A stretch of DNA of 64,000 bases from an uncultured Paracoccaceae bacterium (GTDB lineage Bacteria; Pseudomonadota; Alphaproteobacteria; Rhodobacterales; Rhodobacteraceae). This document shows positions 14,731-33,867 of the stretch, one piece after another. The position numbers and the translations under genes are program-made. The notes under the pieces were generated by a model. It had not been told where the DNA came from, did no database searches, and was given only the letters and a program-made list of their open reading frames with translations. The stretch is from contig CANMPK010000003.1 of assembly GCA_947499725.1 (NCBI GenBank), forward strand, positions 310,001 to 374,000. Reading direction: 5' to 3'. Every line of letters starts with the position of its first letter. Position 1 is the stretch's first letter.

Positions 14731-16230
14731 TTACAGATCCATCAGCAGGCGACGTGGATCTTCCAGCGCTTCTTTCACGCGCACAAGGAAGGTCACCGCG
14801 CCTTTGCCGTCAACGATACGGTGGTCATAAGACAGCGCCAGATACATCATCGGGCGGATTTCCACTTTGCCGTTGATCGCCATTGGGCGGTCCTGAATTT
14901 TGTGCATGCCCAGAATACCAGACTGCGGTGGGTTCAGGATCGGGGAAGACATCAGAGAGCCATAGACACCACCGTTAGAGATGGTGAACGAGCCGCCCTG
15001 CATCTCTGCCATAGACAGTTTGCCGTCACGGGCGCGTTTGCCTTTTTCAGCAATCGCTTTTTCGATGTCAGCAAAGCCCATCGCGTCCGCGTCGCGGATC
15101 ACAGGCACAACCAAGCCCGTTGGTGTACCGGCTGCGATACCCATGTGGACGAAGTTCTTGTACACGATGTCTGTGCCGTCGATCTCAGCGTTCACTTCTG
15201 GCACTTCTTTCAGTGCGTGAACACAGGCCTTTGTAAAGAAGGACATGAAGCCCAGCTTTACGCCGTGTTTCTTCAGGAACAGATCTTTGTACTCGTTGCG
15301 CAGCGCCATCACCTCGGTCATGTCGACCTCGTTGTAGGTGGTCAGCATCGCCGCTGTGTTCTGAGAGTCCTTCAGACGTTTCGCAATTGTCTGACGCAGG
15401 CGTGTCATCTTCACACGCTCTTCACGAGACGCATCGTCTGCGGCCACTGGCGCACGAGGCGCGGCTGCGGCTGCTGGCGCAGGGGCCGCCGCTGGGGCGA
15501 TCGCTGCTTTCAGCACGTCTTCTTTCATGATGCGACCATCACGGCCAGAACCTTGAACCTGACCTGCGGTCAGACCTTTTTCAGCCATCAGCTTGTTGGC
15601 AGACGGCGCGTTTTCCACGTCTTTGCCGGCTGTCGCTGCGGCAGGTGCCGCCGCCGCTGGGGCCGCTGCAGGTGCTGCTGCACCGCCGCCAGAAGACAGA
15701 ACCGCCAGTTTCGCAGTTGCATCCACTGTTGTGCCTTCCGCTGCAACGATTTCTGTCAGAACGCCTGCTGCTGGGGCTGGAACTTCAACAGACACTTTGT
15801 CTGTTTCCAGCTCACACAGCATTTCGTCTGCTGCTACAGTGTCGCCAACTTGCTTGAACCATGTGGAAACAGTTGCTTCTGTTACGGATTCACCAAGTGT
15901 TGGCACCATAACGTCAACAGTCGCTGCTGCCGCTGCCGGAGCTGCTTCTGCCGCTGGAGCTGCCGCCGCCGCTGGGGCAGGGGCCGCGCCTTCGCCAGCA
16001 ACGATGGTCGCCAGCAGCGCGTCAACACCAACAGTGTCGCCTTCGGCTGCAATGATTTCGCCCATCACGCCAGCGGCCGTCGCAGGCACTTCAACAGTCA
16101 CCTTGTCTGTTTCCAGCTCACACAGCATTTCATCAACAGCAACCGCGTCGCCTGGTTTCTTGAACCATGTTGCAACTGTTGCTTCGGTCACGCTTTCGCC
16201 CAGTGTCGGGACGCGTACTTCGGTGGTCAT
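14731..16230 (-). CDS. sucB: dihydrolipoyl succinyltransferase (E2 of 2-oxoglutarate dehydrogenase), two lipoyl domains
   Basis: This 499-residue E2 protein moves succinyl groups to CoA. It has two tandem lipoyl domains with the lipoyl lysines in ELETDKV (Lys43 and Lys146), Ala/Pro-rich linkers, an E3/E1-binding domain near 210-245, and a catalytic domain ending in [10 protein letters not shown] near residue 470. E. coli SucB has only one lipoyl domain; the duplicated form occurs in several Alphaproteobacteria. It follows sucA by 6 bp, so the two are coupled. Confidence 0.96.
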
Positions 16231-16236
16231 TGTTTT

Positions 16237-19194
16237 TTACCCTTTAGTGGTAAGCGCGGCGTCCACCAGCGCTTCTTGTTGAGATTTGTGTTGGCTTGCC
16301 AAACCAGTCGCCGGAGAGGCAGAGGCTGCACGGCCTACATAGACCGGACGTTGATGTTTCGCTTTGGTGCGACCCAGAACCCATTCGATGTTTGGCTCAA
16401 TAAAGCTCCAAGCACCTTGGTTCTTTGGCTCTTCCTGACACCAAACCATTTCCGCATCTGGGAAACGCTCCAGTTCTTTCACCAGAGAAACTGCTGGGAA
16501 TGGGTAGAACTGTTCGATCCGCAGCAAGTAAACATCATCGATGCCACGCGCATCACGCTCTTCCAGCAGGTCATAGTAAACCTTACCGGAACACATCACG
16601 ACGCGTTTGATCTTGTTGTCTTTCACCAGCTTTGTATCGCTGCTGCCCATCTCGGCATCGTCCCACAGAACGCGGTGGAAGCTAGAGCCTTCCAAGAAGT
16701 CCTCGGCCTTAGACACAGCCAGCTTGTGGCGCAGCAAAGACTTCGGAGTCATCAGGATCAGCGGCTTACGGTAGCTGCGGTGCAGCTGACGACGCAGAAT
16801 GTGGAAGTAGTTCGCAGGCGTTGTACAGTTCGCAACGATCCAGTTGTCGCCGCCACACATCTGCAAGAAACGTTCCAGACGCGCGGAAGAGTGCTCTGGG
16901 CCTTGGCCTTCAAAGCCGTGCGGCAACAGAACAGTCAAACCGGACATACGCAGCCATTTGCTTTCACCAGAGCTGATGAACTGGTCGAACATGATCTGCG
17001 CACCGTTGGCGAAGTCACCGAACTGCGCTTCCCACAGGGTCAGCGCGTTTGGTTCTGCCAGCGAGTAGCCATATTCAAAACCCAGAACCGCATATTCAGA
17101 CAGGGCAGAGTCGATCACTTCGTACTGTGCCTGACCTTCGCGAATATTGTTCAGCGGGAAATAACGGTCTTCGGTGTTCTGGTTGATAATGCCAGAGTGA
17201 CGCTGCGAGAATGTCCCGCGTGTCGCATCTTGGCCAGACAGACGCACAGGGTAGCCTTCGGTCATCAAAGACCCAAACGCCAGCGCTTCGCCGGTTGCCC
17301 AGTCGATACCCTCGCCAGAGGCAAACATCTTACCGCGGTTTTCCAGAAGGCGGCCCACTGTTTTGTGCAGCGGATAGTCACCCGGTACGGAAGACAAAGC
17401 CTTGCCCACATCGTCAAATGTGTCGCGCTTAATGGCTGTTTCGCCGCGCTGGTAATCTTCGTCTTGCTTGTCTAGGTGAGACCACTTGCCATCCAGCCAG
17501 TCAGCTTTGTTTGGCTTGAATTCTTTCCCAGCTTCGAATTCTTGGTTCATGCGGGCCTGGAATGCGGCCTTCATGTCTTCGATTTCGCCCTCTGGGATCA
17601 GGCCGTCTTTGACCAGACGTTCTGTGTACAAAGACAGAGTCGTTTTATGGCTCTTGATCTTCTTGTACATCACCGGGTTGGTGAACATCGGCTCGTCGCC
17701 TTCGTTGTGACCAAAGCGGCGGTAGCAGAAGATGTCGATCACGACGTCTTTGTGGAACTTCTGACGGAACTCTGTCGCAACTTTCGCAGCGTGTACAACC
17801 GCCTCTGGGTCATCGCCGTTCACGTGGAAGATCGGCGCTTCAACAACCAGTGCGTTGTCTGTTGGATATGGCGAAGAACGCGAGAAGTGCGGCGCCGTTG
17901 TGAAACCAATCTGGTTGTTCACAACGATATGCATTGTGCCGCCTGTCTTGTGGCCACGCAGGCCAGACAGGGCGAAACATTCCGCAACAACGCCTTGGCC
18001 GGCAAAGGCCGCGTCACCGTGCAACAGGATCGGCAGAACCTGTGTGCGGTCTTCGTCGTTCAGTTGGTCCTGCTTGGCGCGCACCTTACCCAGAACAACT
18101 GGGTTCACCGCTTCAAGGTGCGATGGGTTTGCTGTCAGGGACAAGTGCACTTCGTTGCCGTCAAATTCACGGTCAGAAGAGGCGCCCAAGTGGTATTTCA
18201 CATCGCCAGACCCATCAACGTCTTCCGGCTTAAAGCTACCGCCTTGGAATTCGTTAAAGATCGCGCGATACGGCTTTTGCATCACGTTCGCCAGAATGTT
18301 CAGACGACCACGGTGCGGCATACCAATGACGATGTCTTTAACACCAAGGTTACCACCGCGTTTGATGATCTGTTCCATCGCGGGGATCAGGGATTCACCA
18401 CCGTCCAGACCAAAACGCTTTGTGCCCATGTATTTCACATGCAGGAACTTCTCAAAGCCTTCAGCCTCAACCATTTTGTTCAGGATCGCTTTGCGTCCTT
18501 CACGGGTAAAGGTGATCTCTTTGTTGAAACCCTCGATGCGCTCTTTCAGCCAGCTCGCTTCTTCTGGGTTCGAGATGTGCATGTACTGCAGCGCGAAAGT
18601 GCCACAGTAGGTGCGTTTCACAATGTCCAAGATCTGGCGCATGGTTGCGATCTGCAGGCCAAGAACATTGTCGATAAAGATCGGGCGATCCATATCCGCG
18701 TCTGCAAACCCATAAGAGGCTGGGTCCAGTTCCGGATGAGGCGTGCCATCGCGCATGCCCAATGGGTCAAGGTCCGCGACCAGGTGGCCACGAATACGGT
18801 AAGCGCGGATCAGCATCAGTGCGCGGATCGAGTCCAGAACTGCGCGTTTGATCGCCTCGTCAGAGACCTCCACACCTTTTTCAGCCGCTTTGGCTTTGAT
18901 TTTGTCGCCTGCGCCTTTGGTTTCTGCTGGGGCAGGGTATTCGCCTGTCAACGCGCCAGTCAGTTCATCATTTGGCACCGGTGGCCAGTCGCCACGTGTC
19001 CAGCTCGGGCCAGCGGCCTCTGCTTTTACGTCGAGATCGGCGTCGCCAAGCTGTTTGAAGAAGTCTTGCCAGACCTCGTCTACAGCATTTGGGTCGCTCG
19101 CGTAGCGTGCGTAAAGCTGTTCAAGATACTCAGCGTTATGCCCTTGCATAAAGCTGGATGCATGAAAAATGTCGTTAGGGGATTGGTCGGTCAT
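16237..19194 (-). CDS. sucA: 2-oxoglutarate dehydrogenase E1 component
   Basis: The 985-residue thiamine-diphosphate enzyme decarboxylates 2-oxoglutarate in the TCA cycle. The active-site stretch LTANPSHLEAVNP near residue 357 and the thiamine-diphosphate motif from GDAAFAGQG to NNQIGFTT (about 393-430) are present, as is the transketolase-like C-terminal half. The length is normal for SucA. It lies 96 bp after sucD with a hairpin terminator in that gap, so it may have its own promoter. AGGAGG lies directly upstream of the ATG. Confidence 0.97.
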   Translation of the reverse strand: MTDQSPNDIFHASSFMQGHNAEYLEQLYARYASDPNAVDEVWQDFFKQLGDADLDVKAEAAGPSWTRGDWPPVPNDELTGALTGEYPAPAETKGAGDKIKAKAAEKGVEVSDEAIKRAVLDSIRALMLIRAYRIRGHLVADLDPLGMRDGTPHPELDPASYGFADADMDRPIFIDNVLGLQIATMRQILDIVKRTYCGTFALQYMHISNPEEASWLKERIEGFNKEITFTREGRKAILNKMVEAEGFEKFLHVKYMGTKRFGLDGGESLIPAMEQIIKRGGNLGVKDIVIGMPHRGRLNILANVMQKPYRAIFNEFQGGSFKPEDVDGSGDVKYHLGASSDREFDGNEVHLSLTANPSHLEAVNPVVLGKVRAKQDQLNDEDRTQVLPILLHGDAAFAGQGVVAECFALSGLRGHKTGGTMHIVVNNQIGFTTAPHFSRSSPYPTDNALVVEAPIFHVNGDDPEAVVHAAKVATEFRQKFHKDVVIDIFCYRRFGHNEGDEPMFTNPVMYKKIKSHKTTLSLYTERLVKDGLIPEGEIEDMKAAFQARMNQEFEAGKEFKPNKADWLDGKWSHLDKQDEDYQRGETAIKRDTFDDVGKALSSVPGDYPLHKTVGRLLENRGKMFASGEGIDWATGEALAFGSLMTEGYPVRLSGQDATRGTFSQRHSGIINQNTEDRYFPLNNIREGQAQYEVIDSALSEYAVLGFEYGYSLAEPNALTLWEAQFGDFANGAQIMFDQFISSGESKWLRMSGLTVLLPHGFEGQGPEHSSARLERFLQMCGGDNWIVANCTTPANYFHILRRQLHRSYRKPLILMTPKSLLRHKLAVSKAEDFLEGSSFHRVLWDDAEMGSSDTKLVKDNKIKRVVMCSGKVYYDLLEERDARGIDDVYLLRIEQFYPFPAVSLVKELERFPDAEMVWCQEEPKNQGAWSFIEPNIEWVLGRTKAKHQRPVYVGRAASASPATGLASQHKSQQEALVDAALTTKG

Positions 19195-19231
19195 AGGAGG
19201 ACTCCCGAGCCATTAGGTTTCTATTGTTATT

Positions 19232-19247
19232 CCGACATATATGCCGG
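19232..19247. promoter_or_regulatory. palindrome upstream of sucA
   Basis: CCGACATATATGCCGG is a 16-bp near-perfect palindrome (only one pair mismatched) 38 bp before the sucA start. It lies between the sucD terminator hairpin and sucA and could be an operator or a leader hairpin. No matching regulator is known to me. Confidence 0.3.
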
Positions 19248-19250
19248 CTG

Positions 19251-19283
19251 AAAAGGGATGGGCCCTGTAAAAGCGCCCATCCC
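19251..19283 (-). terminator. intra-operon terminator between sucD and sucA
   Basis: In the minus-strand transcript, GGGATGGGC and GCCCATCCC (plus-strand 19275-19283 and 19255-19263) form a perfect 9-bp stem with an 11-nt loop, followed by TTTT (19254-19251). It lies 8 bp after the sucD stop. Partial termination here would make sucCD more abundant than sucAB-lpd. Confidence 0.65.
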
Positions 19284-19290
19284 CAAAGAT

Positions 19291-20178
19291 TTAGCCAAGT
19301 TCGATTGCTTTTTGAACAGCTTCACCCAAAGTGGCTGGGCTGTCAGCAACAACGATACCTGCTTCTTGCATCGCTGCGATCTTGTCTTCTGCGCCACCGA
19401 CGCCACCAGCAACGATCGCACCCGCGTGACCCATACGACGGCCCGGAGGCGCTGTACGGCCAGCGATGAAGCCCGCTGTTGGTTTCCAACGGCCTTTCTT
19501 ACGCTCGTCTGCTAGGAATGCCGCGGCTTCTTCTTCCGCAGAACCACCGATTTCACCAATCATGATGATAGACTGTGTTTCTTCGTCAGACAGGAACATG
19601 TCCAGCACTTCCAAGTGCTCTGTACCTTTGATCGGGTCGCCGCCGATGCCCACAGCTGTGGACTGGCCCAGACCGATGTCAGCCGTTTGCTTAACCGCTT
19701 CATAAGTCAGTGTACCGGAACGGGACACAACGCCAACAGAGCCACGCTTGTGGATGTGACCTGGCATAATGCCGATCTTACATGCGTCAGGTGTGATAAC
19801 GCCTGGGCAGTTCGGGCCGATCAGACGGCTAGAAGAGTTCTCCAGCGCGCGCTTAACCTTCATCATGTCCAGAACAGGAATACCTTCTGTGATACAGATG
19901 ATCAGTTCCATCTCCGCGTCGATCGCTTCCAGAATGGAATCCGCCGCGAATGGAGGAGGAACATAGATCACAGATGCATTTGCTTCTGTTTTCGCTTTTG
20001 CGTCGTGAACAGAGTCAAACACTGGCAGACCAAGGTGCTCCATGCCGCCTTTGCCTGGTGTTACGCCGCCAACCATGTTGGTGCCGTATGCGATTGCTTG
20101 TTCACTGTGGAAAGTACCCTGAGAGCCAGTCAGACCCTGACAGATTACCTTTGTATTTTCGTCAACGAGAATGGCCAT
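19291..20178 (-). CDS. sucD: succinate-CoA ligase, alpha subunit
   Basis: The 295-residue subunit carries the phosphorylated histidine in [10 protein letters not shown] near residue 250 and a CoA-binding N-terminus ([15 protein letters not shown]). With SucC it interconverts succinyl-CoA and succinate with substrate-level phosphorylation. It follows sucC by 4 bp. Length is typical. Confidence 0.97.
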
Positions 20179-20182
20179 CTTC

Positions 20183-21376
20183 TTATCCTTTCACCGCTTT
20201 AACGATCTTTTCGGCACCATCAGACAGGTTGTCCGCAGCAATTACGTCCAGACCGGAGTTGTTGATGATGTCTTTACCGGCTTCAACGTTTGTACCCTCA
20301 AGGCGTACAACCAGCGGAACCTGCAGGCCAACTTCTTTAACAGCAGCCACAACGCCCTCTGCGATCACGTCGCAGCGCATGATGCCACCGAAGATGTTAA
20401 CCAGAATGCCTTTAACGTTCGCATCGGATGTGATGATTTTGAACGCTTCAGTCACTTTCTCTTTCGTAGCGCCACCGCCAACGTCAAGGAAGTTTGCAGG
20501 CTCTGCACCGTACAGTTTGATGATGTCCATTGTGGCCATCGCCAGACCGGCGCCGTTCACCATACAACCGATTTCACCGTCAAGCGCGATGTAGTTCAGG
20601 TCGTACTTAGAAGCTTCCAGCTCTTTGGAATCTTCTTCTGTTTCGTCGCGCAGCTCAGCAACATCCGCGTGGCGGTAGATTGCGTTGCCGTCAAAGCTTA
20701 CTTTCGCGTCCAGAACTTTCAGGTCGCCAGAGTCAGACACGATCAGCGGGTTGATTTCCAGCATCTCCATGTCTTTTTCGATGAAGGCTGTGTACAGCTG
20801 ACCCATCAGTTTAACGCACTGCTTAACCTGTGCGCCTTTCAGGCCCAAAGAGAACGCGATGCGGCGGCCGTGGTACGCTTGGTAGCCAGTCGCTGGATCA
20901 ACAGAGAAAGACAGGATCTTCTCAGGAGTTGCCGCTGCAACTTCTTCAATGTCCATGCCGCCTTCAGTGGAGCATACGAAAGACACGCGAGATGTCACAC
21001 GATCCACCAGCAGAGCCAGGTACAATTCTGTTTCAATGCCAGAACCCGCTTCGATGTAGATGCGGTTGACTTGCTTGCCCACTGGACCAGTTTGGTGCGT
21101 GACCAATGTACGGCCCAGCATCTTTTTGGCTTCTTCAGCGGCTTCTTCAACAGATTTGGTCAGGCGTACACCGCCCTTTTCACCCGCATCTGCTTCTTTG
21201 AAAGAGCCTTTGCCGCGACCACCTGCGTGGATCTGCGCCTTTACAACCCAAAGAGGGCCGTCCAGTTCGCCGGCTGCTGTTTTAGCGTCCTCGGCCTTCA
21301 GGACAACACGTCCTTCAGAAACCGGGGCACCGTAAGAGCGAAGCAATGCCTTCGCTTGGTATTCATGGATGTTCAT
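20183..21376 (-). CDS. sucC: succinate-CoA ligase, beta subunit
   Basis: This 397-residue ATP-grasp subunit begins [16 protein letters not shown], the family's hallmark, and has [12 protein letters not shown] and [15 protein letters not shown] motifs for nucleotide binding and the catalytic loop. It is the first gene of the suc operon, and the twin TGTGATCACA operator lies 94-130 bp upstream of its start. Confidence 0.97.
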
Positions 21377-21469
21377 GAACCTATCCCATTTTGCTGCAGT
21401 TGGGATCGGTATAGACCTGAAGTTACTATTATTCTAAGCGGTTTTTGCAATTTCCAGAAAGTTTTCGAC

Positions 21470-21506
21470 ATTTGTGATCACACGCCAAAAATGTGTGATC
21501 ACAAAT
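21470..21506. promoter_or_regulatory. twin palindromic operator upstream of sucC
   Basis: TGTGATCACA occurs at 21473-21482 and 21494-21503, 21 bp apart (two helical turns). The pair also forms 14-bp inverted arms (ATTTGTGATCACAC, GTGTGATCACAAAT) around a 9-nt centre. The same composite, with the same 21-bp spacing and AAAAAT in the spacer, lies upstream of sdhC at 29368-29398. This strongly suggests a shared dimeric regulator of TCA genes. Which protein binds is not visible in the window. Confidence 0.8.
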
Positions 21507-21817
21507 TAAGAAAATACATTGCAAGTGACGATTCGAACTAGCGATTTAGCTGCAATGCAGCATTGTTTGTAGGGCATTCTGCGTTCCAATGCCCATTTAA
21601 TTTAAATCCGTAACATCGGTATGACAAACCCTCTTGCAGGGGCAAAGCAATGGCAACACTCTCGTCTAAGTCAGCGCATGTTTCTTTGGAAAATGAAAAT
21701 ACACGTGACTTCTAGCGTCGTATTGATAGAAAAAAGACAACTAATGATAAATGTGTAAGCGAGTAGAGTTGAGCCGTGTTTGAAGCAGAACGCCTTTGGC
21801 CCCTTCGAGGAAGGGAT
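21507..21817. other. intergenic region between the sucC operator and the asparagine-synthase-like gene
   Basis: About 310 bp without a credible gene. It holds a 13-bp palindrome GCTGCAATGCAGC (21549-21561) that resembles the CTGC-N3-GCAG form reported for PHA regulator PhaR, and a small CCCT/AGGG hairpin near 21630. The promoter of the plus-strand gene must lie here. GATTCGAAC at 21529 resembles a tRNA T-loop but no tRNA can be folded. Confidence 0.35.
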
Positions 21818-23332
21818 ATGTTCACCGTATTCCGGTTCCAATATGTTCTGTGCGAACTCTCCCAAAAGGCCGATTACCTACCTCAGCGTTTCGAATTTTC
21901 CGGACGTCAAATTTTGGCGGGCAAGGATACAAATATTGTAAAGCTCTTTGACGCCGAAGGCGCGCCAATTGGCTATATGCTCGGGATCGCGGTGGGGCCG
22001 GATGGCCTTTTCAAGAAAACCTACCCCTTCGCCTTCACCAAAGATGATCCGGAATTTTGGCGCAAATTCGAAGAGATTCTGATCGACTGCGCGGGCCGCT
22101 ACACCTTCTTTATCGACACGGGGACCGAAGCACGTCTGTATTGCGATCCCGTAGGGATGAATGGTGTCGTCTATGAAACCCAGGCGCACCGCATCGCGTC
22201 TTCTCCGCTTTTGGCCATTGATCGGCCGGTGATCGCGAACAAGCTGTATGACACAGAGCTACTTGCGGGTCATAAAGTACGCTATACGCTGCATCACACC
22301 TGCGACGAACACGTGAAACGCTTGAACCCTAACTGTTTCATTGATCTTAAAACCTTTGAAACGCAACGTTTCTGGCCGCGTGATGAAGACTTCGCTCTGG
22401 GAGAGCGACCCCACGCTCAAGTCTATGATCAAATCATCGAGGGCCTTGCCTTCAATATCGATGAGATCACGGAGGGCCATCCTTGCGTTATGCCCATCTC
22501 AGGCGGGCGCGACAGTCGCATTTTGGCAGCGGTGGGTAAGAAGAGCCTGCACAAATTGCATATGTTCTACACCCATGTGAAAAACTATGCCTCCGAGGTC
22601 GACGCCCATGTCGGCGCAGGCGTAGCCCATGCGTTGAAGGTGCCGCATCTTATTTTGGGTGGGCGGTTTGAGGATCGATCCTCACGGTGGGAGCGTAAAT
22701 TCCTCGCGCATGCCTACAAGATCTCTCATGCCTCCGAGGCGGCCCCGCCCAAAGAATACGAAACAGGCATCCTCAAAAGCATCCCCTCCGACAAAGTTAT
22801 TCTGCGCGGTCACCAAACAGATCTATTGCGCGCGGTGTTTGTCTTTAAGTCCAAAAGCCGCTGGCACCGCCACGGGTGGCAGCTTGAGCGCATGCAGATC
22901 GTACCGCGAGATGACTTTCACCGTGGCATCTCCGAGCATTTCAAAAAAGAATTCTTCAAATGGCAGCGTACACTGCCCGAAAACGCGATGGAAAAAGCTG
23001 CGGATTTCATGTTCCTAGAGGTGTACTACAATTCCTCTATCGGCGCATCCTTCCCGGGGCTATGGCAGCATTTCTACATGTCCCCGTTCAACAGTCGTCG
23101 GTTGATCAGCCTATCTCTCAGTTTTGAAGAGGCTGAACGCCGCAAAGGCAACCCGGTGAATGACATCATTCAGCGTTGCGCCCCAGAATGCGCCCGCGTC
23201 CCTTACTACGGAGAGGGCGGGGAGCATTTCCCTGAAAACCTTGATCCGAAGAAGTTTGCCCCTCTTTCAGGCCCTCGCTACGAAGCAACAGCCGAGCGTC
23301 TGCGTAACTTGTACAAAACCGCCGCGGAATAG
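21818..23332 (+). CDS. asparagine-synthase-like PP-loop protein
   Basis: The 504-residue protein has an N-terminal domain resembling a class-II glutamine amidotransferase fold (GRYTFFIDTGTEARLYCDPV near residue 90) but starts MFTV, without the Cys2 nucleophile, so it should not release ammonia from glutamine. The C-terminal half has the ATP-pyrophosphatase PP-loop SGGRDS near residue 227. Such proteins adenylate a carboxylate and join an amine. ATG at 21818 has AGGA 6 nt upstream; a GTG at 21776 is an alternative. It stands alone on the plus strand between sucC and mdh, both minus. The substrate is unknown; a surface-glycan or peptide amidation role is only a guess. Confidence 0.75.
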   Translation: MFTVFRFQYVLCELSQKADYLPQRFEFSGRQILAGKDTNIVKLFDAEGAPIGYMLGIAVGPDGLFKKTYPFAFTKDDPEFWRKFEEILIDCAGRYTFFIDTGTEARLYCDPVGMNGVVYETQAHRIASSPLLAIDRPVIANKLYDTELLAGHKVRYTLHHTCDEHVKRLNPNCFIDLKTFETQRFWPRDEDFALGERPHAQVYDQIIEGLAFNIDEITEGHPCVMPISGGRDSRILAAVGKKSLHKLHMFYTHVKNYASEVDAHVGAGVAHALKVPHLILGGRFEDRSSRWERKFLAHAYKISHASEAAPPKEYETGILKSIPSDKVILRGHQTDLLRAVFVFKSKSRWHRHGWQLERMQIVPRDDFHRGISEHFKKEFFKWQRTLPENAMEKAADFMFLEVYYNSSIGASFPGLWQHFYMSPFNSRRLISLSLSFEEAERRKGNPVNDIIQRCAPECARVPYYGEGGEHFPENLDPKKFAPLSGPRYEATAERLRNLYKTAAE

Positions 23333-23364
23333 CCTGCGCGACCTCTAAATTCCCATCGCCCAAT

Positions 23365-23400
23365 AAAAAACGGCGCCGAGGAAACCTCGACGCCGCTTTT
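23365..23400. terminator. bidirectional terminator between convergent genes
   Basis: CGGCGCCGAGG (23371-23381) pairs with CCTCGACGCCG (23385-23395) around an AAA loop with one C-A mismatch. TTTT follows on the plus strand and a run of six T on the minus strand. It serves both the asparagine-synthase-like gene and mdh. Confidence 0.88.
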
Positions 23401-23420
23401 AATTTAATGCTGATAACAGC

Positions 23421-24431
<1,011 letters not shown>

Positions 24432-24503
24432 TTAAGCCTCACGCAAGCACTTTGCGCCGCACTGCGGCGCCAAAAATGACAGTAAACTTACATAAAAGTA
24501 TCA

Positions 24504-24519
24504 GTATACGCTCGTATAC
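24504..24519. promoter_or_regulatory. GTATAC repeat palindrome in the mdh/TauE divergent region
   Basis: GTATAC-GCTC-GTATAC at 24504-24519 is a palindrome made of two self-complementary hexamers. It lies 120 bp upstream of mdh and 31 bp upstream of the exporter gene, so it could regulate either. Confidence 0.3.
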
Positions 24520-24549
24520 ATTGGCTTTTTAGCGTGATTGGCGGCTCGA

Positions 24550-25290
24550 ATGGCACCTGAAATTTTGTTGGTAACCGCGCTGGCAGTGTTCTTTGCGGGC
24601 TTCTCCAAAGGTGGCTTTGGCGGCAGCGTGGCCTTTGTCAGCTCCGCGATTCTTGCAATCGTGATGAAACCAACAGAGGCCGTTGCGTTCATGGCACCGC
24701 TGCTCATTCTGATGGATGTCGGCACGCTTCGCTCCTTCTGGGGCGGCTGGGATGCGCGCCAAGTCAAAGTGCTTCTGATCGGCAGCGCACCGGGCATGAT
24801 CCTAGGAACAATACTGTTTACCGTCATCAGCGACGACATGCTGCGCATTTTGCTCGCAACCATCGCCTTAGCCTTTGTGATCTGGCGTCTTTGGCCCAAG
24901 GGCACCAAAACGCCCAAGCCCTATTCCGAGAACCTCGGCTATGTGGCGGGCGCAGTGGCGGGCTTTTCCAGCTTCGTCAGCCACGCAGGTGGCCCGCCGA
25001 CAGCGATGTATTTGCTCACGCAAAAGCTCAGCAAAACGCAATACCACGCCACCGTCACCTTGGTCTTCTGGATCGTCAATACGCTCAAAATCATCCCATA
25101 TGCCTTCCTCGGCATCTTCAGCGTCGAGCTGTTCTTATACGGTCTTTACATGGTGCCAATCGCGATCTTCGGCGTTTGGCTTGGCATTCGCGCCCATCAC
25201 TGGATCCCAGAACACCTGTTCTTCCGCTTCACCTATGTTTGCCTTGCGCTGACATCCGTGAAGCTGATCTATGATTCAGTGATGAACTAA
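24550..25290 (+). CDS. TauE/SafE-family membrane transporter
   Basis: The 246-residue protein is nearly all hydrophobic with about eight helices and the glycine-rich AGFSKGGFGG and AGFSSFVSHAGGPP repeats of the TauE/SafE family, which export sulfite, sulfoacetate or related organic anions. ATG at 24550 is chosen over TTG at 24538. The ribosome site is weak. Its last codon overlaps the end of a small convergent gene by 4 bp. No sulfur gene lies nearby to name the substrate. Confidence 0.88.
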   Translation: MAPEILLVTALAVFFAGFSKGGFGGSVAFVSSAILAIVMKPTEAVAFMAPLLILMDVGTLRSFWGGWDARQVKVLLIGSAPGMILGTILFTVISDDMLRILLATIALAFVIWRLWPKGTKTPKPYSENLGYVAGAVAGFSSFVSHAGGPPTAMYLLTQKLSKTQYHATVTLVFWIVNTLKIIPYAFLGIFSVELFLYGLYMVPIAIFGVWLGIRAHHWIPEHLFFRFTYVCLALTSVKLIYDSVMN

Positions 25291-25592
25291 GCGTCCTTGC
25301 CATCATCGGGCAACGCTTCAGCCAAAGTCTCAAACGCTTGGCCCGAGGCCACCAAACACATCATCCCATTCGGTTTGGTCACCGTGATCGTCCACGAACC
25401 GCTGTCGGGGCTGGCGAACACTTCAACCAAATCATTGTTCTTCCCAAGGCCAAGCGACTGCCGCGTCTCGCCGTAAGAATTGGTCAATCGCTGCACAATG
25501 GCCTCGCGTGGGCCGCAGTTGCGCAGACTTTGGGCCCAAACTGGCCCTGCAAGCATCATTAAAATTAGTCCAAGTGCGATCTTACCCTTCAT
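25287..25592 (-). CDS. hypothetical exported protein
   Basis: This 101-residue protein has a clear signal peptide (charged MKGK, hydrophobic core, cleavage after VWAQ-like site near residue 20) and two Cys (NCGPREA, MMCLVA) that could form a disulfide in the periplasm. AAGGAGC lies upstream of the ATG at 25592. Similar short proteins of unknown function are common in Rhodobacterales. Its end overlaps the convergent exporter gene. Confidence 0.7.
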   Translation of the reverse strand: MKGKIALGLILMMLAGPVWAQSLRNCGPREAIVQRLTNSYGETRQSLGLGKNNDLVEVFASPDSGSWTITVTKPNGMMCLVASGQAFETLAEALPDDGKDA

Positions 25593-25889
25593 TGCCTTGC
25601 TCCTTTTGCGAAAGCGCGCAGACACCGGCACATCTTCAAGGGGTCTTTACGCATGTCTCCTAGGCTGCGCTCTAAGCAGGAAATATTCGTTAACGCAGCG
25701 CACGGCGGGGCAGGGAAGTTGGCTAAAATCTCTCTCAAATCAAGACCGTCTATCCCAGACGCCTTGCCTATTCCTGCGCGCCCCACCAAAATGACGTCCC
25801 GTATTTCTGCGGTGCGGCGTCAAATCCCTTGCAATCTTTTCGTAAAAAATGCCACTACTGCACGCAACTTTATTTCACGGAGAAAACTC
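25593..25889. other. region between the exported-protein gene and mcl2
   Basis: This 297-bp stretch should hold the promoters of the minus-strand exported-protein gene and of mcl2. An in-frame extension of mcl2 reaches back to 25653 but has no family match or ribosome site, so I read the stretch as noncoding. The last 70 bp are AT-rich. No confident promoter was identified. Confidence 0.4.
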
Positions 25890-26756
25890 TTGTCCGCCTC
25901 AACCTCATCTCGCGCTCGCCCGTTTCGCTCCGTTCTTTACATTCCAGCGTCCAACAGTCGCGCTCTGGAAAAAGCCAAAACACTGCCCGTGGATGCGATC
26001 ATCTTCGATCTGGAAGACGCAGTGGCCCCAGCCGAAAAAATCAACGCCCGCGCCACTTTGGCCGAGGCGCTGAACACCGGCGACTACGGCGCCCGCATGC
26101 GCATCGTGCGCATCAATGATCTCTCCACCGAATGGGGCGCAGACGACGCCAAGGCGATCAAAGACATGCAGGCAGATGCAGTCCTGTTGCCCAAAGTCGA
26201 AAGCGCCGCTCAAGTTCAGGCGCTGGCCGACATCACCGGTGATCTGCCCATCTGGGCGATGATGGAAACGCCGCGCGGCATGCTCAAAGCCTTGGAAATC
26301 GCCGAACATCCCCTGATGCAAGGCTTTGTCATGGGCACCAACGATCTTGCCAAAGAGCTGCAATCCCGCTTCCGCCCAGATCGCCTGCCCATGCAAGCGG
26401 GCCTTGGTCTGTGCCTGCTGGCCGCCAAAGCCGAAGGGATCACAATTGTCGATGGCGTCTACAACGCCTTCAAAGACACCGAGGGCCTGAAAACCGAATG
26501 CGACCAAGGCCGCGACATGGGCTTTGACGGCAAAACTCTAATCCACCCAGCGCAGGTCGAAACCGCCAATGCCGCCTTTGCCCCGTCTGATGCGGAAATC
26601 GATCTCGCCAGCCGCCAAATCGAAGCTTTCGAACAAGCCGAAAAAGACGGCTCCGGCGTCGCTGTGGTCGATGGCAAGATCGTCGAAAACCTGCATGTCG
26701 TCACCGCCCGCGAGATCCTCGCGAAAGCAGATGCAATTTCAGCACTAAGCGACTAA
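25890..26756 (+). CDS. mcl2: (3S)-malyl-CoA thioesterase-like CitE-family protein
   Basis: The 288-residue CitE/HpcH-type TIM-barrel protein has the opening RSVLYIPASNSRALEKA, Asp/Glu metal residues in IIFDLEDAVAP, the METPRG stretch near 125, and a C-terminal AKDGxSG-like QAEKDGSGVAV. In Rhodobacter sphaeroides the shorter paralogue Mcl2 hydrolyses (3S)-malyl-CoA to malate and CoA in the ethylmalonyl-CoA pathway. Length and the neighbouring mch support that. The start is TTG at 25890 with GGAG 7 nt upstream; the reading frame is open further upstream but lacks support. Mcl1 (malyl-CoA lyase) activity cannot be ruled out. Confidence 0.83.
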   Translation: MSASTSSRARPFRSVLYIPASNSRALEKAKTLPVDAIIFDLEDAVAPAEKINARATLAEALNTGDYGARMRIVRINDLSTEWGADDAKAIKDMQADAVLLPKVESAAQVQALADITGDLPIWAMMETPRGMLKALEIAEHPLMQGFVMGTNDLAKELQSRFRPDRLPMQAGLGLCLLAAKAEGITIVDGVYNAFKDTEGLKTECDQGRDMGFDGKTLIHPAQVETANAAFAPSDAEIDLASRQIEAFEQAEKDGSGVAVVDGKIVENLHVVTAREILAKADAISALSD

Positions 26757-26792
26757 CTATTAGGCGATACCAACCAACTCGGAGATCGCATC

Positions 26793-27341
26793 ATGTTCGT
26801 GCTTATCCTAGGTTTAGCTCTTTGGGTCGCAGCCCATGTGTTCAAAAGAGTCGCCCCGGCAAAACGCGCAAGTCTCGGCGAGGCCTTTAAAGGCCGCATC
26901 GCCCTTATCCTTTTCCTCTCTGTCGCCCTGATGATTGTGGGCTACCGCATGGCAGACACCATCCACCTATGGGGCCGCCCCGGCTGGACCACTCCGGTGA
27001 ACAACATCCTGATGGTGCTGGCGCTGTATTTCACTACCCCAGGCCCAAAGAAGGGCGTGCTGTTTCACAACATGCGCCATCCCATGCTCTTTGGTTTCAT
27101 GCTCTGGGTTGTGGCGCACCTTCTGGTCAATGGCGATCTCGCCTCGCTGATCCTGTTCGGCGGCTTGGGCCTCTGGGCTGTCACGCAATTGACCATGATC
27201 AACCGCGCAGAGCCTGAATTTACCGGAAATCCAAAAGGCAGCATCGCAAAAGATGGCATGTTCTTTGGCATTTCCATCTTACTCGTCGGCGTGATCGGCT
27301 ATATCCACACCCTTTTCGGTCTAACCCCGTTCGGAGGATAA
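26793..27341 (+). CDS. NnrU-family membrane protein
   Basis: The 182-residue protein has about five membrane helices and the RHPMLFGFMLWVVAHLLVNGD stretch typical of the NnrU family, where the histidines may bind heme or a quinone. NnrU in denitrifiers is linked to nitric-oxide metabolism, but other members are of unknown function, and here the genes around it are for acetyl-CoA metabolism. The next gene starts 1 nt after its stop. The GGAGG in its last codons serves as the next gene's ribosome site. Confidence 0.85.
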   Translation: MFVLILGLALWVAAHVFKRVAPAKRASLGEAFKGRIALILFLSVALMIVGYRMADTIHLWGRPGWTTPVNNILMVLALYFTTPGPKKGVLFHNMRHPMLFGFMLWVVAHLLVNGDLASLILFGGLGLWAVTQLTMINRAEPEFTGNPKGSIAKDGMFFGISILLVGVIGYIHTLFGLTPFGG

Positions 27342-27342
27342 T

Positions 27343-27546
27343 ATGAAAGCCTATCGCCTACTCACAGAGGATGACACATCCGCCTTCTGCCACAAAGTCA
27401 CCGAAGCCCTGAACAAGGGCTGGGAACTGCATGGCGACCCAAGCTACGCCTTTGATTCCGCAAAAGGAATGATGCGCTGCGCGCAGGCCGTCGTGAAAGA
27501 AGTGGAAGGCACCTACACCCCTGAGACAAAGCTAGGAGCTCTCTAA
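27343..27546 (+). CDS. DUF1737 small protein
   Basis: This 67-residue protein (Lys/Trp-rich, with the KGWELHGDPSYAF segment in the middle) matches the DUF1737 family, small soluble proteins of unknown function. It lies 1 nt after the NnrU gene and its stop overlaps the mch start (TAATG), so it is part of the operon. Confidence 0.85.
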   Translation: MKAYRLLTEDDTSAFCHKVTEALNKGWELHGDPSYAFDSAKGMMRCAQAVVKEVEGTYTPETKLGAL

Positions 27547-28577
27547 TGGCCAAGACCAACCCGGGTCGGTTCTTCGAAGACTACAAAGTGGGCGAGGTGA
27601 TCAAACACGCCGTCCCACGCACCATTTCCGGCGGCGAGCGTGCCTTGTATCACGCGCTCTATCCCGCCCGTCATGCGCTGTATTCTTCCGATGAATTTGC
27701 CCGCGCGTCTGGTCTGCCCAAAGCGCCGCTGGATGATCTGGCGGCCTTCCACGTGATCTTCGGCAAGACCGTGCCAGATGTCTCGCTCAACGCCGTGGCC
27801 AACCTTGGCTACGCCGAAGGGCGCTGGCATCTGCCGGTCTACGAAGGCGACACTCTACGCTCTGAATCCGAAGTCATCGGGGTCAAGCAAAACTCAAACG
27901 GCAAATCCGGCGTGGTCTATGTGCGCACGCGGGGTTTGAACCAAAACAATGACGTGGTCATGGACTACGTGCGCTGGGTCATGGTGCGCAAAGGCAACCT
28001 TGATGCGCCCGCGCCAGAAACGGTGATCCCAGACCTCTCCAAAGCCATTCCCGCGGATCAATTGGTGATCCCAGACGGGCTGGATTTCACAGGCTACGAC
28101 TTTGACCTCGCAGGCGAGCCGCACCGCTGGGGCGACTACGACATCGGCGAAACCATCGACCATGTCGATGGCGTGACGATCGAAGAAGCCGAACACATGA
28201 TGGCCACGCGCCTCTGGCAGAACACCGCCAAAGTGCATTTCGACACCACCGCCCGCCCAGACGGCACCCGCCTGATCTATGGCGGCCACGTGATCTCCAT
28301 GGCGCGCGCGCTGTCGTTCAACGGATTGGCCAATGCGCAAATGATCGTGGGCCTGAATGGCGGTGCCCACGCAAACCCGTGCCTGTCGGGCACAACGGTG
28401 CGCGCATGGTCCGAGGTGCTGGACAAAGCTGAAACCACAGCGCCGGGTGTCGGCGCCATTCGCCTGCGCCTCGTGGCCACAAAGGGTGGCGAACCCTTTG
28501 CGCTGAAAGGCGAAGACGGCAAATATCAAGCTGACGTTCTGTTAGACCTTGATTACTGGGCCCTCATGCCGCTTTGA
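27546..28577 (+). CDS. mch: mesaconyl-C1-CoA hydratase (MaoC-type double hotdog)
   Basis: The 343-residue enzyme hydrates mesaconyl-C1-CoA to (2R,3S)-beta-methylmalyl-CoA, the step before malyl-CoA lyase in the ethylmalonyl-CoA pathway. It has two MaoC-like halves (about 1-165 and 175-343), and its 343-residue length equals that of the characterised R. sphaeroides enzyme as I recall it. Neighbour mcl2 and window genes ecm and ccr support the assignment. Translation is coupled to the DUF1737 gene. Stop at 28577 is followed 7 nt later by a metallopeptidase-like gene. Confidence 0.92.
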   Translation: MAKTNPGRFFEDYKVGEVIKHAVPRTISGGERALYHALYPARHALYSSDEFARASGLPKAPLDDLAAFHVIFGKTVPDVSLNAVANLGYAEGRWHLPVYEGDTLRSESEVIGVKQNSNGKSGVVYVRTRGLNQNNDVVMDYVRWVMVRKGNLDAPAPETVIPDLSKAIPADQLVIPDGLDFTGYDFDLAGEPHRWGDYDIGETIDHVDGVTIEEAEHMMATRLWQNTAKVHFDTTARPDGTRLIYGGHVISMARALSFNGLANAQMIVGLNGGAHANPCLSGTTVRAWSEVLDKAETTAPGVGAIRLRLVATKGGEPFALKGEDGKYQADVLLDLDYWALMPL

Positions 28578-28584
28578 TACTGGC

Positions 28585-29337
28585 ATGATACGTGCAGCAC
28601 TCACCGCAACCGCTCTCACTCTGGCCTGTCCCGCACAGGCCGAGTTCTCTTATGACCATACCGACGAAGCCACGCAGCGCTTTGTTGAAAGCAATCTTTT
28701 GGGCATTTTCTACCACGAATTTGGCCACGCCCTGATCGACATCTTAGAGCTTCCGATCTTCGGCCAAGAAGAAGACGCAGCGGATGTGCTCTCTGTTTTT
28801 CTGATCTCGGAATTCTTTGAAGAAGAAACTGCTGTCCAACTGGCCTATGACACGGCTTTTGGTTTTCTTGGCGAAGCCGAGCAAGTCGACGAAATTTCCT
28901 ACTGGGGCGTGCATGGCCCTGATCTTCAACGGTATTATAACCTCGTCTGCCTGTTCTACGGTGCCAACCCAGAGGAACGCGACGACGTGGCCGAAGAACT
29001 TGGCTTGCCAGAAGAACGCGCGGAATATTGCCCTGAAGAATACGATCAAGCCGCCCACAGCTGGGGCGGGGCGCTCGATCAGATCACCTCAGAAGATGGG
29101 GGCAACTCCATGCGCTTAGGGCGTGTCGAAACAGATACCGACGGCGCAGTCGTTACCGCTAACGTGATCACAGAAGAAATCGATGCGTTAAATCAAGAGT
29201 TTGACCTTCCGTACAGCCTGACGATTCACATCGAAGCCTGCGACGAAGCCAACGCCTTCTACGATCCAGCAGACCAAAGCGTGACAATGTGTACAGAATT
29301 TGCCGACTCACTGGTAGAAATGGCCCCTGAGGGCTAA
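28585..29337 (+). CDS. DUF4344 metallopeptidase-like exported protein
   Basis: The 250-residue protein has a signal peptide (MIRAALTATALTLACPAQA) and the zinc-binding motif HEFGH at residues 44-48 with the family's nearby acidic residues. This is the DUF4344 family of putative metallopeptidases. The start ATG at 28585 has only a weak ribosome site, which fits translational readthrough from mch. Two later Cys pairs suggest disulfides. It ends 30 bp before the sdhC operator. The substrate is unknown. An operon position after mch is seen, but any role in the pathway is unlikely. Confidence 0.82.
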   Translation: MIRAALTATALTLACPAQAEFSYDHTDEATQRFVESNLLGIFYHEFGHALIDILELPIFGQEEDAADVLSVFLISEFFEEETAVQLAYDTAFGFLGEAEQVDEISYWGVHGPDLQRYYNLVCLFYGANPEERDDVAEELGLPEERAEYCPEEYDQAAHSWGGALDQITSEDGGNSMRLGRVETDTDGAVVTANVITEEIDALNQEFDLPYSLTIHIEACDEANAFYDPADQSVTMCTEFADSLVEMAPEG

Positions 29338-29367
29338 TTTTCCGACAGTAATTGTCGAGAATAAACA

Positions 29368-29398
29368 TGTGATCACAGCAGAAAAATCTGTGATCACA
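29368..29398. promoter_or_regulatory. twin palindromic operator upstream of sdhC
   Basis: TGTGATCACA occurs at 29368-29377 and 29389-29398, exactly 21 bp apart. The 11-nt spacers here (GCAGAAAAATC) and upstream of sucC (CGCCAAAAATG) share AAAAAT in the same place, and both right-hand boxes run on into AAATT. It lies 137 bp upstream of the sdhC start. A shared regulator of the sdh and suc operons is the simplest reading. Confidence 0.8.
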
Positions 29399-29534
29399 AA
29401 TTTCACTACCTGCTGCTAATTTGATCGTTTTTTGTGAAAATTCTACGAAAAACGGCTCACTTTTCTGCCCTGCCAACGTGACATAAGCCAGATTTTCTGT
29501 ACTAAGAAGGCAACGGAACCTGAAAGGAGCCAGC

Positions 29535-29918
29535 ATGGCCGATGTAAATCGTGGCAATCGCCCGCTTTCACCGCATTTGACCATCTACCGCCCGCAAATG
29601 ACTTCCATGTCTTCCATCATGGTGCGGGTAACAGCAATCGCCTGTTTCTTGGTCGCAGTGCTTGTAGTTTGGTGGCTTGTCGCTGCCGCATCATCTGAAA
29701 CCGCTTTCCAATTCATCGACGGGCTGCTGCGCAGCTGGCTTGGTGACCTCGTGCTGTTCGGCGCGACATGGGCGATTTTCTATCACATGCTGGGACGCCT
29801 GCGCCACTTGATCTGGGATCTGGGCTACTGCGTCGAAGTTGAAATCTCTGAGAAAATGGGCATTGGCATGTTCGCACTGGCGACCATCCTGACGTTCATC
29901 ACTCTGGTTGTGGTATAA
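29535..29918 (+). CDS. sdhC: succinate dehydrogenase cytochrome b556 subunit
   Basis: The 127-residue membrane anchor begins RPLSPHLTIYR, the SdhC signature after a short leader, and has three helices with a heme-ligating His in FYHMLGRLRHL near residue 80. It binds heme b and ubiquinone with SdhD. AAAGGAG lies 8 nt upstream of the ATG. sdhD follows by 10 bp. Confidence 0.93.
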   Translation: MADVNRGNRPLSPHLTIYRPQMTSMSSIMVRVTAIACFLVAVLVVWWLVAAASSETAFQFIDGLLRSWLGDLVLFGATWAIFYHMLGRLRHLIWDLGYCVEVEISEKMGIGMFALATILTFITLVVV

Positions 29919-29928
29919 GGAGCCTGTC

Positions 29929-30300
29929 ATGAGCTATCTGACTGATCGCAAACGCGCCCAAGGCCTCGGAGCAGGCGGCGGCGGCACCCACCACCACTGG
30001 CAAATGATGGCAAGCTCTCTGGCGCTTGTTATTCTGGTTCCACTCTTTGTGCTGGTCTTCGGCGCGGGTCTTGGCGGCACTTACGAAGAAGTGCTGGCCT
30101 ATTACTCCCGCCCATTCCCAGCAATCGTCACCGGCCTGTCTTTGGTTGTTGGCATTATTCACCTGATGCGCGAAGCACATGCCGCCATCGAAGATTACAC
30201 GCACGGCACTGTACAAAAGCTAAGCCTGATCGCCACAACAGCGTTTTCCTACACGCTGATCGCGACTGCGCTATTCGCTCTTGTAAAGCTCGCTCTGTAA
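29929..30300 (+). CDS. sdhD: succinate dehydrogenase membrane anchor subunit
   Basis: The 123-residue anchor has three membrane helices and the heme and quinone-site motif [10 protein letters not shown] near residue 80. The ATG at 29929 has AAGGAG just upstream; an earlier TTG would add 7 residues without support. sdhA begins 22 bp after its stop. Confidence 0.93.
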
Positions 30301-30322
30301 GCCGCGCAAAGGAATACGTATC

Positions 30323-32131
30323 ATGACAGCTGCATATGAATATGAAACGCACGAATACGACGTTGTTGTCGTAGGTGCCGGCGGCGCCGGCCTGCGTGCG
30401 ACACTGGGCATGGCCGAGCAGGGCCTGCGCACAGCCTGTGTCACCAAAGTTTTCCCAACCCGTTCCCACACGGTTGCGGCGCAGGGTGGTATCGCTGCGT
30501 CCCTGTCCAACATGGGCCCAGACAACTGGCAGTGGCACATGTATGACACTGTGAAAGGCTCTGACTGGCTGGGCGACACAGACGCGATGGAATACCTCGC
30601 GCGTGAAGCCCCAAAAGCGGTTTACGAACTAGAGCACTACGGTGTGCCATTCTCCCGTACGGAAGAAGGTAAAATCTACCAGCGTCCGTTCGGTGGCCAC
30701 ACAACAGAATTCGGCGAAGGCCCAGCGGTACAGCGTACTTGTGCTGCAGCAGACCGGACGGGTCACGCGATCCTGCACACGCTGTATGGTCAGTCCCTGA
30801 AGAACAACGCGGAATTCTACATCGAATATTTCGCGATTGACCTGATCATGTCCGAAGAGGGCGAATGTCAGGGTGTTGTCTGCTGGAAGCTGGACGACGG
30901 TACAATGCACGTCTTCAACGCGAAGATGGTTGTTCTGGCGACAGGCGGTTACGGCCGTGCTTACTTCTCCGCAACATCTGCACACACATGTACAGGTGAC
31001 GGCGGCGGCATGGTGGCCCGTGCAGGTCTGCCTCTGCAAGATATGGAATTCGTTCAGTTCCACCCAACCGGCATCTACGGCTCCGGCTGCTTGATCACCG
31101 AGGGTGCGCGCGGCGAAGGCGGCTACCTGACCAACTCCGAAGGCGAGCGTTTCATGGAACGTTACGCACCGCAGTATAAAGACCTCGCACCACGCGATTA
31201 CGTCTCGCGCTCCATGACTATGGAAATCCGCGAAGGCCGCGGTGTGGGCGCTGAAGGCGATCACATCTTCCTGAACCTGAACCACCTCCCAGCCGATGCG
31301 CTGGCCGAGCGTCTGCCAGGTATCTCTGAATCCGCGAAGATCTTCGCCGGTGTTGACGTAACCAAAGAGCCAATTCCGGTTCTGCCAACGGTTCACTACA
31401 ACATGGGTGGTATCCCAACCAACTATTGGGGTGAGGTTCTGAACCCATCCAAAGACGATCCAACCGCTGTTGTGCCGGGCCTGATGGCCGTGGGTGAAGC
31501 GGGCTGTGCCTCTGTGCACGGTGCGAACCGTCTGGGTTCCAACTCTCTGATCGACCTTGTTGTGTTCGGCCGTGCCTCCGCGATCCGCGCAGGCAAAGTG
31601 GTGGATGCAGATGCAGCCAACCCAACGCTGAACCAAGCCTCTGTTGATGCAGCCTTTGATCGTTTCGACGGTCTGCGCAACGCAAAAGGCAACGTCGCAA
31701 CCGCAGAGCTGCGTCTGGAAATGCAGAAAACCATGCAGTCTGACGCTGCTGTTTTCCGTACAGACAAGACCCTGAAAGAGGGTGTTGCCAAGATGACAGA
31801 CATCGCAGCCAAGATGGACGATCTGAAAGTCACAGACCGCTCTCTGGTGTGGAACTCTGACCTGATGGAAACGCTCGAGCTGGACAACTTGATGCCAAAC
31901 GCTCTGGCAACCATCCACGGCGCTGAGGCACGTAAGGAATCTCGCGGTGCGCACGCACACGAAGATTACGCAGATCGTGACGATAAAAACTGGCGCGTCC
32001 ACACAGTGTCCCGCGTGGAAGGCAACAAAGTTGAGCTGTCTTACCGTCCGGTCATCACCGATCCGCTGACCACCGAAGATGAAGGTGGCATCGAGCTTAA
32101 GAAGATCGCGCCGAAAGCGCGTACGTTCTAA
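30323..32131 (+). CDS. sdhA: succinate dehydrogenase flavoprotein subunit
   Basis: The 602-residue subunit oxidises succinate to fumarate. FAD attaches to the His of [10 protein letters not shown] near residue 50, and the catalytic and substrate region [15 protein letters not shown] appears as [14 protein letters not shown] near 395. A gene encoding a sulfotransferase-like protein begins 5 bp after its stop, before sdhB, which is unusual for this operon. Confidence 0.97.
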
Positions 32132-32136
32132 AGCAG

Positions 32137-33015
32137 ATGGCAGATCAGGCGCATAAACCCATTCAGCAGGCGCTCGGCTTTCAGCCGGGCACCACGCTGC
32201 GTGTGTTTGGCATGCGCCGTTCAGGCAATCATGCGCTGATCAACTGGCTGACTCGCAACCGCGAAAAGAACAGCGTGTTTCTCAACAACTGTATTGTTGG
32301 AAAATCCGCTGCCCTCAGCTGTCGTGGGCTTGAAATGAACACCCGTCGCTTGCCGCATAAAACCGGTCAGGCGATGGATGACACAACTTACGCTGCGGGC
32401 GATGGCGCGCTGCTGGTCGTGTCATATGAAGATTTCGCGCCAGATGTGGATGATCTGATGTCAGGCCTCACGCCTGATCTTCCAGATGATCAAGTCACGC
32501 GTAATATCTTGCTGTATCGCAACTTCATGAACTGGGCGGCGTCTTTGCTGCGCAAGATTCAGCAGAACGATGCGCAGGAAACCTTTGATTGCTTGCGGGT
32601 CATGATTGTTGCGTTGAACCGGTACCGAGATATGCTCGAACTGGTGGCCAACTCTCAATCTGTCGGGGCTCTCCCGATCAATTATGATCGCTGGGTGGCT
32701 CGTCCACGCTACCGTCGGCGCATCCTGCAAGAGCTGGGATTGCCGATTAAAGACAACGATCTGGGTCAGGTTCAGCCTTATGGCGGCGGCTCTTCTTTCC
32801 AGAAGGGCGCCGAAAATGCGGCGGAGCTTAAAACAGATCAACGCTGGCGCGAGATGATGAATGATCCATCGTTTCAAATCGTGCTCTTGGCCGCGAGCCA
32901 AGATGCAGAGCTTGTCGCTCTGATGCACCGTTTGATGCCAGAAGATGCAAATATGCTGACGGCCTACCTACATCAGGCCCAGTTCCCTTATGACGTACAG
33001 GTGTCTGACTCATGA
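32137..33015 (+). CDS. sulfotransferase-like P-loop protein inside the sdh operon
   Basis: The 292-residue protein has GMRRSGNHALINWL at residues 25-38, which fits the phosphosulfate-binding P-loop of sulfotransferases, and a later INYDRWVARPRYRRRILQEL stretch of the type these enzymes use near the sulfate donor. No other domain is recognised. It lies between sdhA and sdhB, 5 bp after one and 72 bp before the other, and is read in the same direction, so it is probably transcribed with sdh. Function is unknown; the link to succinate dehydrogenase is positional only. Confidence 0.72.
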   Translation: MADQAHKPIQQALGFQPGTTLRVFGMRRSGNHALINWLTRNREKNSVFLNNCIVGKSAALSCRGLEMNTRRLPHKTGQAMDDTTYAAGDGALLVVSYEDFAPDVDDLMSGLTPDLPDDQVTRNILLYRNFMNWAASLLRKIQQNDAQETFDCLRVMIVALNRYRDMLELVANSQSVGALPINYDRWVARPRYRRRILQELGLPIKDNDLGQVQPYGGGSSFQKGAENAAELKTDQRWREMMNDPSFQIVLLAASQDAELVALMHRLMPEDANMLTAYLHQAQFPYDVQVSDS

Positions 33016-33087
33016 TGATGCGCACCTGTGAACCCAATTCAAACCCACGCGCTGCCGGCGCGTTAGGCAACTGAAGGAGACGACGAG

Positions 33088-33867
33088 ATGGTCGAATTAG
33101 CGCTCCCTAAAAACTCCCGTGTAACAACCGGGAAAACCTGGCCCAAGCCGGCTGGCGCGACAAACCTGCGTAAATTCCAGATTTACCGCTGGAACCCAGA
33201 CGATGGCAAAAACCCATCTGTGGACACGTATTTCGTAGATATGGACAACTGCGGCCCAATGATCTTGGACGCGTTGATCAAAATCAAAAACGAGATCGAC
33301 CCAACCCTGACCTTCCGCCGCTCTTGCCGCGAAGGCATCTGTGGTTCTTGCGCGATGAACATCGACGGCATCAACACCTTGGCCTGTATCTATGGCATCG
33401 ACGAGGTGAAGGGCGCGGTGAAGATCTACCCACTGCCGCACATGCCGGTTGTGAAAGACTTGATCCCAGACCTGACGCACTTCTATGCGCAGCACGCCTC
33501 TATCATGCCGTGGCTGGAAACCAAAACAAACCGCCCTGCGAAAGAATGGAAGCAATCCATTGAAGATCGCAAAAAACTGGACGGCCTGTATGAGTGTGTG
33601 ATGTGCGCATCCTGCTCGACGTCCTGCCCATCTTACTGGTGGAACGGCGACAAATATCTTGGGCCAGCAGCACTGCTGCACGCCTACCGCTGGATCATCG
33701 ACAGCCGTGATGAAGCAACTGGCGAGCGTCTGGACGATCTGGAAGATCCGTTCAAACTGTATCGCTGCCACACCATCATGAACTGTGCGAAGACCTGCCC
33801 GAAAGGTCTGAACCCAGCGAAAGCGATCTCTGAAATCAAAAAGATGATGGTAGAGCGCGCGGTTTAA
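33088..33867 (+). CDS. sdhB: succinate dehydrogenase iron-sulfur subunit
   Basis: The 259-residue subunit carries electrons from SdhA to quinone. It has the 2Fe-2S site CREGICGSC plus a further Cys in NTLAC, the 4Fe-4S site [11 protein letters not shown], and the 3Fe-4S site built from [18 protein letters not shown] precedes the ATG. A repeat hairpin follows 13 bp after the stop. Confidence 0.97.

Follow-up and report, generated by a model that had tools for sequence, protein, structure and literature searches.

Twin palindromic boxes before sucC and sdhC as probable operators of the GntR-family regulator AkgR

Our analysis of a 64,000-nucleotide stretch of DNA (the window) showed that the palindromic box TGTGATCACA stands as an identical pair in front of sucC and again in front of sdhC, and that the same box precedes the gene of a GntR-family regulator elsewhere in the genome. 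Judged from sequence and from published passages, the twin pairs are very probably (about 0.9) operators of AkgR, on which dimers bound to the same face of the DNA would activate sucCDAB and sdh, with the regulator also controlling its own gene. This would assign a regulator to a site that was otherwise unexplained and would outline a compact TCA regulon of three promoters that can be found by eye. The boxes and the operons behind them are located as follows:

21473..21482, minus strand: putative AkgR box, promoter-proximal at sucC, exact TGTGATCACA
21494..21503, minus strand: putative AkgR box, promoter-distal at sucC, at a spacing of 21 bp
14731..21376, minus strand: sucC, sucD, sucA and sucB, a presumed operon (Pfam and NCBIfam matches; gaps of 4, 96 and 6 bp)
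29368..29377, plus strand: putative AkgR box, promoter-distal at sdhC, exact TGTGATCACA
29389..29398, plus strand: putative AkgR box, promoter-proximal at sdhC, at a spacing of 21 bp
29535..33867, plus strand: sdhC (by Pfam and NCBIfam) with presumed sdhD, sdhA and sdhB (by position and size of the open reading frames)

The twin boxes and their 31-bp composite had been proposed in a preliminary description of this DNA, and their coordinates (starts at 21473, 21494, 29368 and 29389) were reproduced exactly. The box is found at no other place in the window, where its four copies compare with a mean of 0.07 in 100 dinucleotide shuffles, and the composite (21 bp between box starts) occurs twice against 0 expected; in the whole 3.15-Mb genome it is restricted to these two sites. 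Chance or a dispersed repeat as the source of the boxes was ruled out by the shuffles and by this restriction. The box nearer to the start codon lies 96 bp away at sucC and 136 bp away at sdhC. The spacers between the boxes (CGCCAAAAATG and GCAGAAAAATC) and the AAATT that follows the right-hand boxes read as first described, but their likeness as a shared feature beyond A/T richness did not stand: spacers are weakly conserved in relatives (at most about 0.6 bit per column), and since the two genes lie on opposite strands (sucC minus, sdhC plus), AAATT is promoter-distal at the former and promoter-proximal at the latter. The resemblance is thus one of A/T richness, and what the two places share is the boxes and their 20–21 bp spacing.

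The earlier remark that no copy precedes mdh was borne out for the pair in all loci with this gene (0/36, window included); two of these 36 had a single site upstream of mdh, a full box in L155 and a core box in L147, the latter being also one of three loci where sdhC has no good pair in front. Two further observations concern the window itself. An extra GTGATCAC core (CGTGATCACA) lies some 205 bp upstream of the sdhC pair, at 29164-29171 within a DUF4344 coding sequence, and a 518-aa open reading frame (21776-23332), divergent from sucC and situated between sucC and mdh, appeared by eye to be asparagine-synthase-like and had no Pfam match at 0.001.

Genome-wide, the 10-mer TGTGATCACA was found at seven places: four in the pairs, two in coding sequence, inside genes that resemble an arsenite transporter (arsB) and arsC (named by appearance), and one in front of a GntR/FCD regulator gene, 8 bases from its start codon, the sole full box outside coding sequence beyond the window pairs. 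The 11-mer TTTGTGATCAC likewise has seven copies, of which three lie in coding sequence, two at sucC and one each at sdhC and the regulator gene. As the strong sites fall at sucC, sdhC and the regulator gene, the regulon visible in the sequence by such sites is one of three putative promoters; a one-mismatch genome scan gave 143 forward matches, and this three-promoter regulon counts strong sites only.

The regulator gene lies away from the window, flanked by YgjP-like and accA genes, and encodes a 218-aa protein with Pfam GntR and FCD domains above cut-off. It was the only regulator gene of this genome for which a full box was found upstream. Among its relatives in named genomes (the best 80 of 401, 75–86% identity) the core GTGATCAC was present upstream in 80/80 and the full box in 73/80. 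We know of no TCA-cycle role for McbR (YncC) of Escherichia coli, the protein whose structure is the closest solved one to the regulator by sequence, a distant match (PDB 4p9f; E 4.1e-20). Four residues (N137, H141, H184 and D206) were invariant in 81 AkgR-like proteins (reference L011:6493-7149). The single box just upstream of the regulator gene would be expected to serve self-regulation of the gene, probably repression.

The four invariant residues presumably coincide only in part with the usual metal ligands of FCD domains. For the identity of the protein, we take RSP_0981 of R. sphaeroides and AkgR to be one protein. Passages of the literature describe RSP_0981 as a GntR-family protein whose predicted targets are succinyl-CoA synthetase, succinate dehydrogenase and 2-oxoglutarate dehydrogenase (PMC4344238), place GTGATCAC among AkgR sites and call AkgR an activator (PMC6365646); the name AkgR also occurs in PMC7471390 and PMC8557541. 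Our candidate is likewise a GntR-family protein (Pfam GntR, FCD), the AkgR motif GTGATCAC occurs in each of the four boxes as well as upstream of the regulator gene, and the pairs precede the corresponding targets, namely sucC, with sucD, sucA and sucB behind it, and sdhC. In one related locus (L161) sucC, mdh, sdhC and akgR follow each other in this order within 11 kb, which parallels the numbering of the sucCD, sdh and RSP_0981 loci in PMC4344238. The preliminary description had been able to match the site to neither CceR nor AkgR; this has to be revised for AkgR, as a GntR/FCD gene carries the same box and the literature links these operons to a GntR regulator and GTGATCAC to AkgR. For the CceR regulon, published passages describe a LacI-family regulator that responds to 6-phosphogluconate.

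The R. sphaeroides AkgR (RSP_0981) regulon therefore agrees with the present case in regulator family, targets and motif GTGATCAC, so far as the published passages go, and the activator role stated in them would fit it as well. It differs in being that of another organism; box pairing, the spacing of 20–21 bp and the phase towards the promoter are sequence-based descriptions of this study. How regulator, site and target relate is known in kind, and the paired, phased architecture is what is added here. The same GTGATCAC palindrome is reported in a passage of PMC6365646 for another GntR-family protein, PS417_07240 of the Pseudomonas simiae deoxyribonate cluster, where it lies at -47 to -40 of its regulator gene; this protein has other targets and is given there as 32% identical to AkgR. 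Among the matches listed for the 10-mer TGTGATCACA or the 8-mer core, none was by title a paper on a TCA regulator, and the listed 8-mer matches were without PMC6365646.

The architecture of the pairs was compared in 116 loci, of which 40 had been chosen for an exact pair and 75 cut around core pairs, with the window as the remaining one. A pair with at most 3 mismatches preceded sucC in 110/110 loci where this gene was found (spacing 21 in 102, 20 in eight), and a pair with at most 4 mismatches preceded sdhC in 97/100 (spacing 21 in 85, 20 in 12), proportions that describe the form of the site and give no unbiased rate of conservation, since the loci were chosen around pairs. The core GTGATCAC was nearly invariant in relatives, the outer T and A were more variable, and T runs were found on the outer flanks. 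Downstream of the pairs, promoter elements were predicted from conservation, and those of the window are:

21433..21438, minus strand: predicted -35-like element CTTAGA of sucC (conserved block, position weight matrix)
21408..21413, minus strand: predicted -10-like element TATACC of sucC
29478..29483, plus strand: predicted -35 element GTGACA of sdhC (conserved element)

Before sdhC, a conserved GTGAC[AT] was present in 86 of the 97 loci, with 89 matches against 5.5 expected in shuffled upstream regions, and is read as the predicted -35 element; it was not found in the other 11. The distance from the start of the nearer box to this element was 66–69 bp in 73 matches. The other 15 distances below 120 bp (45, 46, 56, 56, 58, 58, 59, 60, 80, 87, 89 four times, and 99, the last being the second match of a locus whose other match lies at 68) all lay within 0.28 turn of whole 10.5-bp multiples from the mode; a match at 223 bp was excluded from this test. 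Equally good phasing was reached by none of 200,000 random sets, and p was 0.0005 when each position was used once and 0.002 when near positions were merged by hand, values that are only guides because genomes of a family share ancestry. For sucC the promoter could be placed with a leave-one-out matrix in 95 of the 110 loci (15 scored too low); it was at the mode in 78, closer by one turn in 13 and elsewhere, off phase, in four; 0 of 200,000 random sets were phased as well, a figure to be read with the same reserve. In the window, compared with the family mode, the pair at sucC is about one turn closer to the promoter and that at sdhC about two turns farther away. Pair and predicted promoter are thus separated by distances that vary in steps of about one helical turn, a pattern for which no published description was found in the AkgR/RSP_0981 literature covered, the original 2015 mBio AkgR study lying outside this scope. 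The system would offer a testable helix-phased activator with natural distance variants across about a hundred genera.

This arrangement can be interpreted as follows. Each GTGATCAC-centred palindrome would bind one AkgR dimer, and a box spacing of 20–21 bp would bring both dimers onto one face of the DNA, in keeping with the binding to a single helix face first suggested for the twin boxes, which the phase towards the promoter also fits; the cooperativity proposed there may hold as well. Counted from the start of the nearer box, the pairs would precede the predicted -35 by about 45–89 bp, mostly in whole helical turns, and such upstream placement with a near-fixed rotational phase fits an activator that contacts RNA polymerase. 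We infer from this geometry, and from the published passage on activation, that AkgR may activate sucCDAB and sdh by touching RNA polymerase. A further reading, to which we give even odds, is that AkgR works as an obligate dimer pair forming a movable module, whose distance drifts over several turns while its phase hardly changes, a single box being sufficient for its own gene.

Many GntR/FCD regulators are repressors, and the akgR box, 8 bases before the start codon, occupies a repressor-like place. Both points were counted for the alternative that AkgR binds the same sites mainly as a repressor of sucC and sdhC. We consider this improbable, because the position of the pairs relative to the predicted -35 elements is well upstream and mostly in helical phase, and because PMC6365646 describes AkgR as an activator.

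Site and regulator were also compared in their distribution among genomes. In the host family, 394 genomes were searched, all from different genera except G000 and G308; the exact pair was present in 257 and a reversed control pattern in 0, and the regulator gene was present in 362 (E 1e-40). Exact pairs were found in 253/362 regulator-positive in comparison to 4/32 regulator-negative genomes (Fisher p 1.8e-10), so that the regulator gene and the exact pair co-occur; the preliminary description had called for a test of co-occurrence with one transcription factor family. A sample of 30 was searched from the 109 regulator-positive genomes without an exact pair; one (G037) had no sucC match, and 28 of the other 29 had a pair at 1–3 mismatches, the exception (G054) having a weak regulator match (5e-43). 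Two of the 32 regulator-negative genomes had no sucC match. Three loci were dropped from the sucC counts, L190 and L191 as paralogues (52 and 49% identity) and L221 as a second sucC of G106. At the regulator-negative sucC orthologue loci the pair was absent in 21/28 and present in 7/28. Completeness of the seven genomes that kept it was 74, 77, 77, 88, 91, 93 and 100%, and it is possible, given the incompleteness of most, that the regulator gene was overlooked in most of them. Of the 21 loci without the pair, two carry a decayed pair or an isolated near-box upstream of sucC: G157 (L173) has a regulator-like gene, 44% identical and with internal stops, and G109 (L171) has a regulator fragment. 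These possibly represent a natural series of co-loss of regulator and pair.

The same data bear on the alternative that the main reader of the twin boxes is another GntR/FCD paralogue. Many genomes have two regulator matches, and a related GntR gene from another family (27% identity) adjoins a similar pair; loss of the candidate gene, however, mostly goes with loss of the pair, and the candidate alone was found with a full upstream box in this genome, which makes a paralogue very unlikely. That the boxes are sites of a CRP/FNR-type protein is barely credible: TGTGA and TCACA are indeed CRP half-sites, but CRP sites have the form TGTGA-N6-TCACA, the half-sites within each box are adjacent without such a six-base spacer, and the box co-occurs with a GntR gene.

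Coordination of sucCDAB and sdh by one regulator, which had been postulated from the twin boxes, is well supported. A scan for the core pair in 72 further regulator-positive genomes, hand-picked among G002-G111 at a completeness of at least 90%, found it in 71, with exactly two copies in 60; G040 had no core pair. Eight eligible genomes were left out of this set: G054, known to lack a pair before sucC, G037, without a sucC match, G030, G064, G079 and G085, which have a pair at 1–2 mismatches, and G087 and G108, in which it is exact. Of 131 core-pair places in the 72 genomes, 70 were before sucC and 60 before sdhC (within 450 bp). The preliminary description had called for such a scan at TCA operons and had named random placement and a lack of conservation in relatives as grounds against its proposal; neither was seen, with 130/131 core pairs preceding sucC or sdhC. 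The one place elsewhere belongs to G061, whose only core pair, of spacing 22, is at neither gene; it lies near a contig end (L374, position 2620), after a gene that by eye is quinone-oxidoreductase-like. Outside the host family the core pair was found in 5/380 genomes of the class, and in one such locus (L223) it precedes a different GntR gene (27% identity to AkgR), which suggests that the GTGATCAC palindrome is common to a wider GntR clade.
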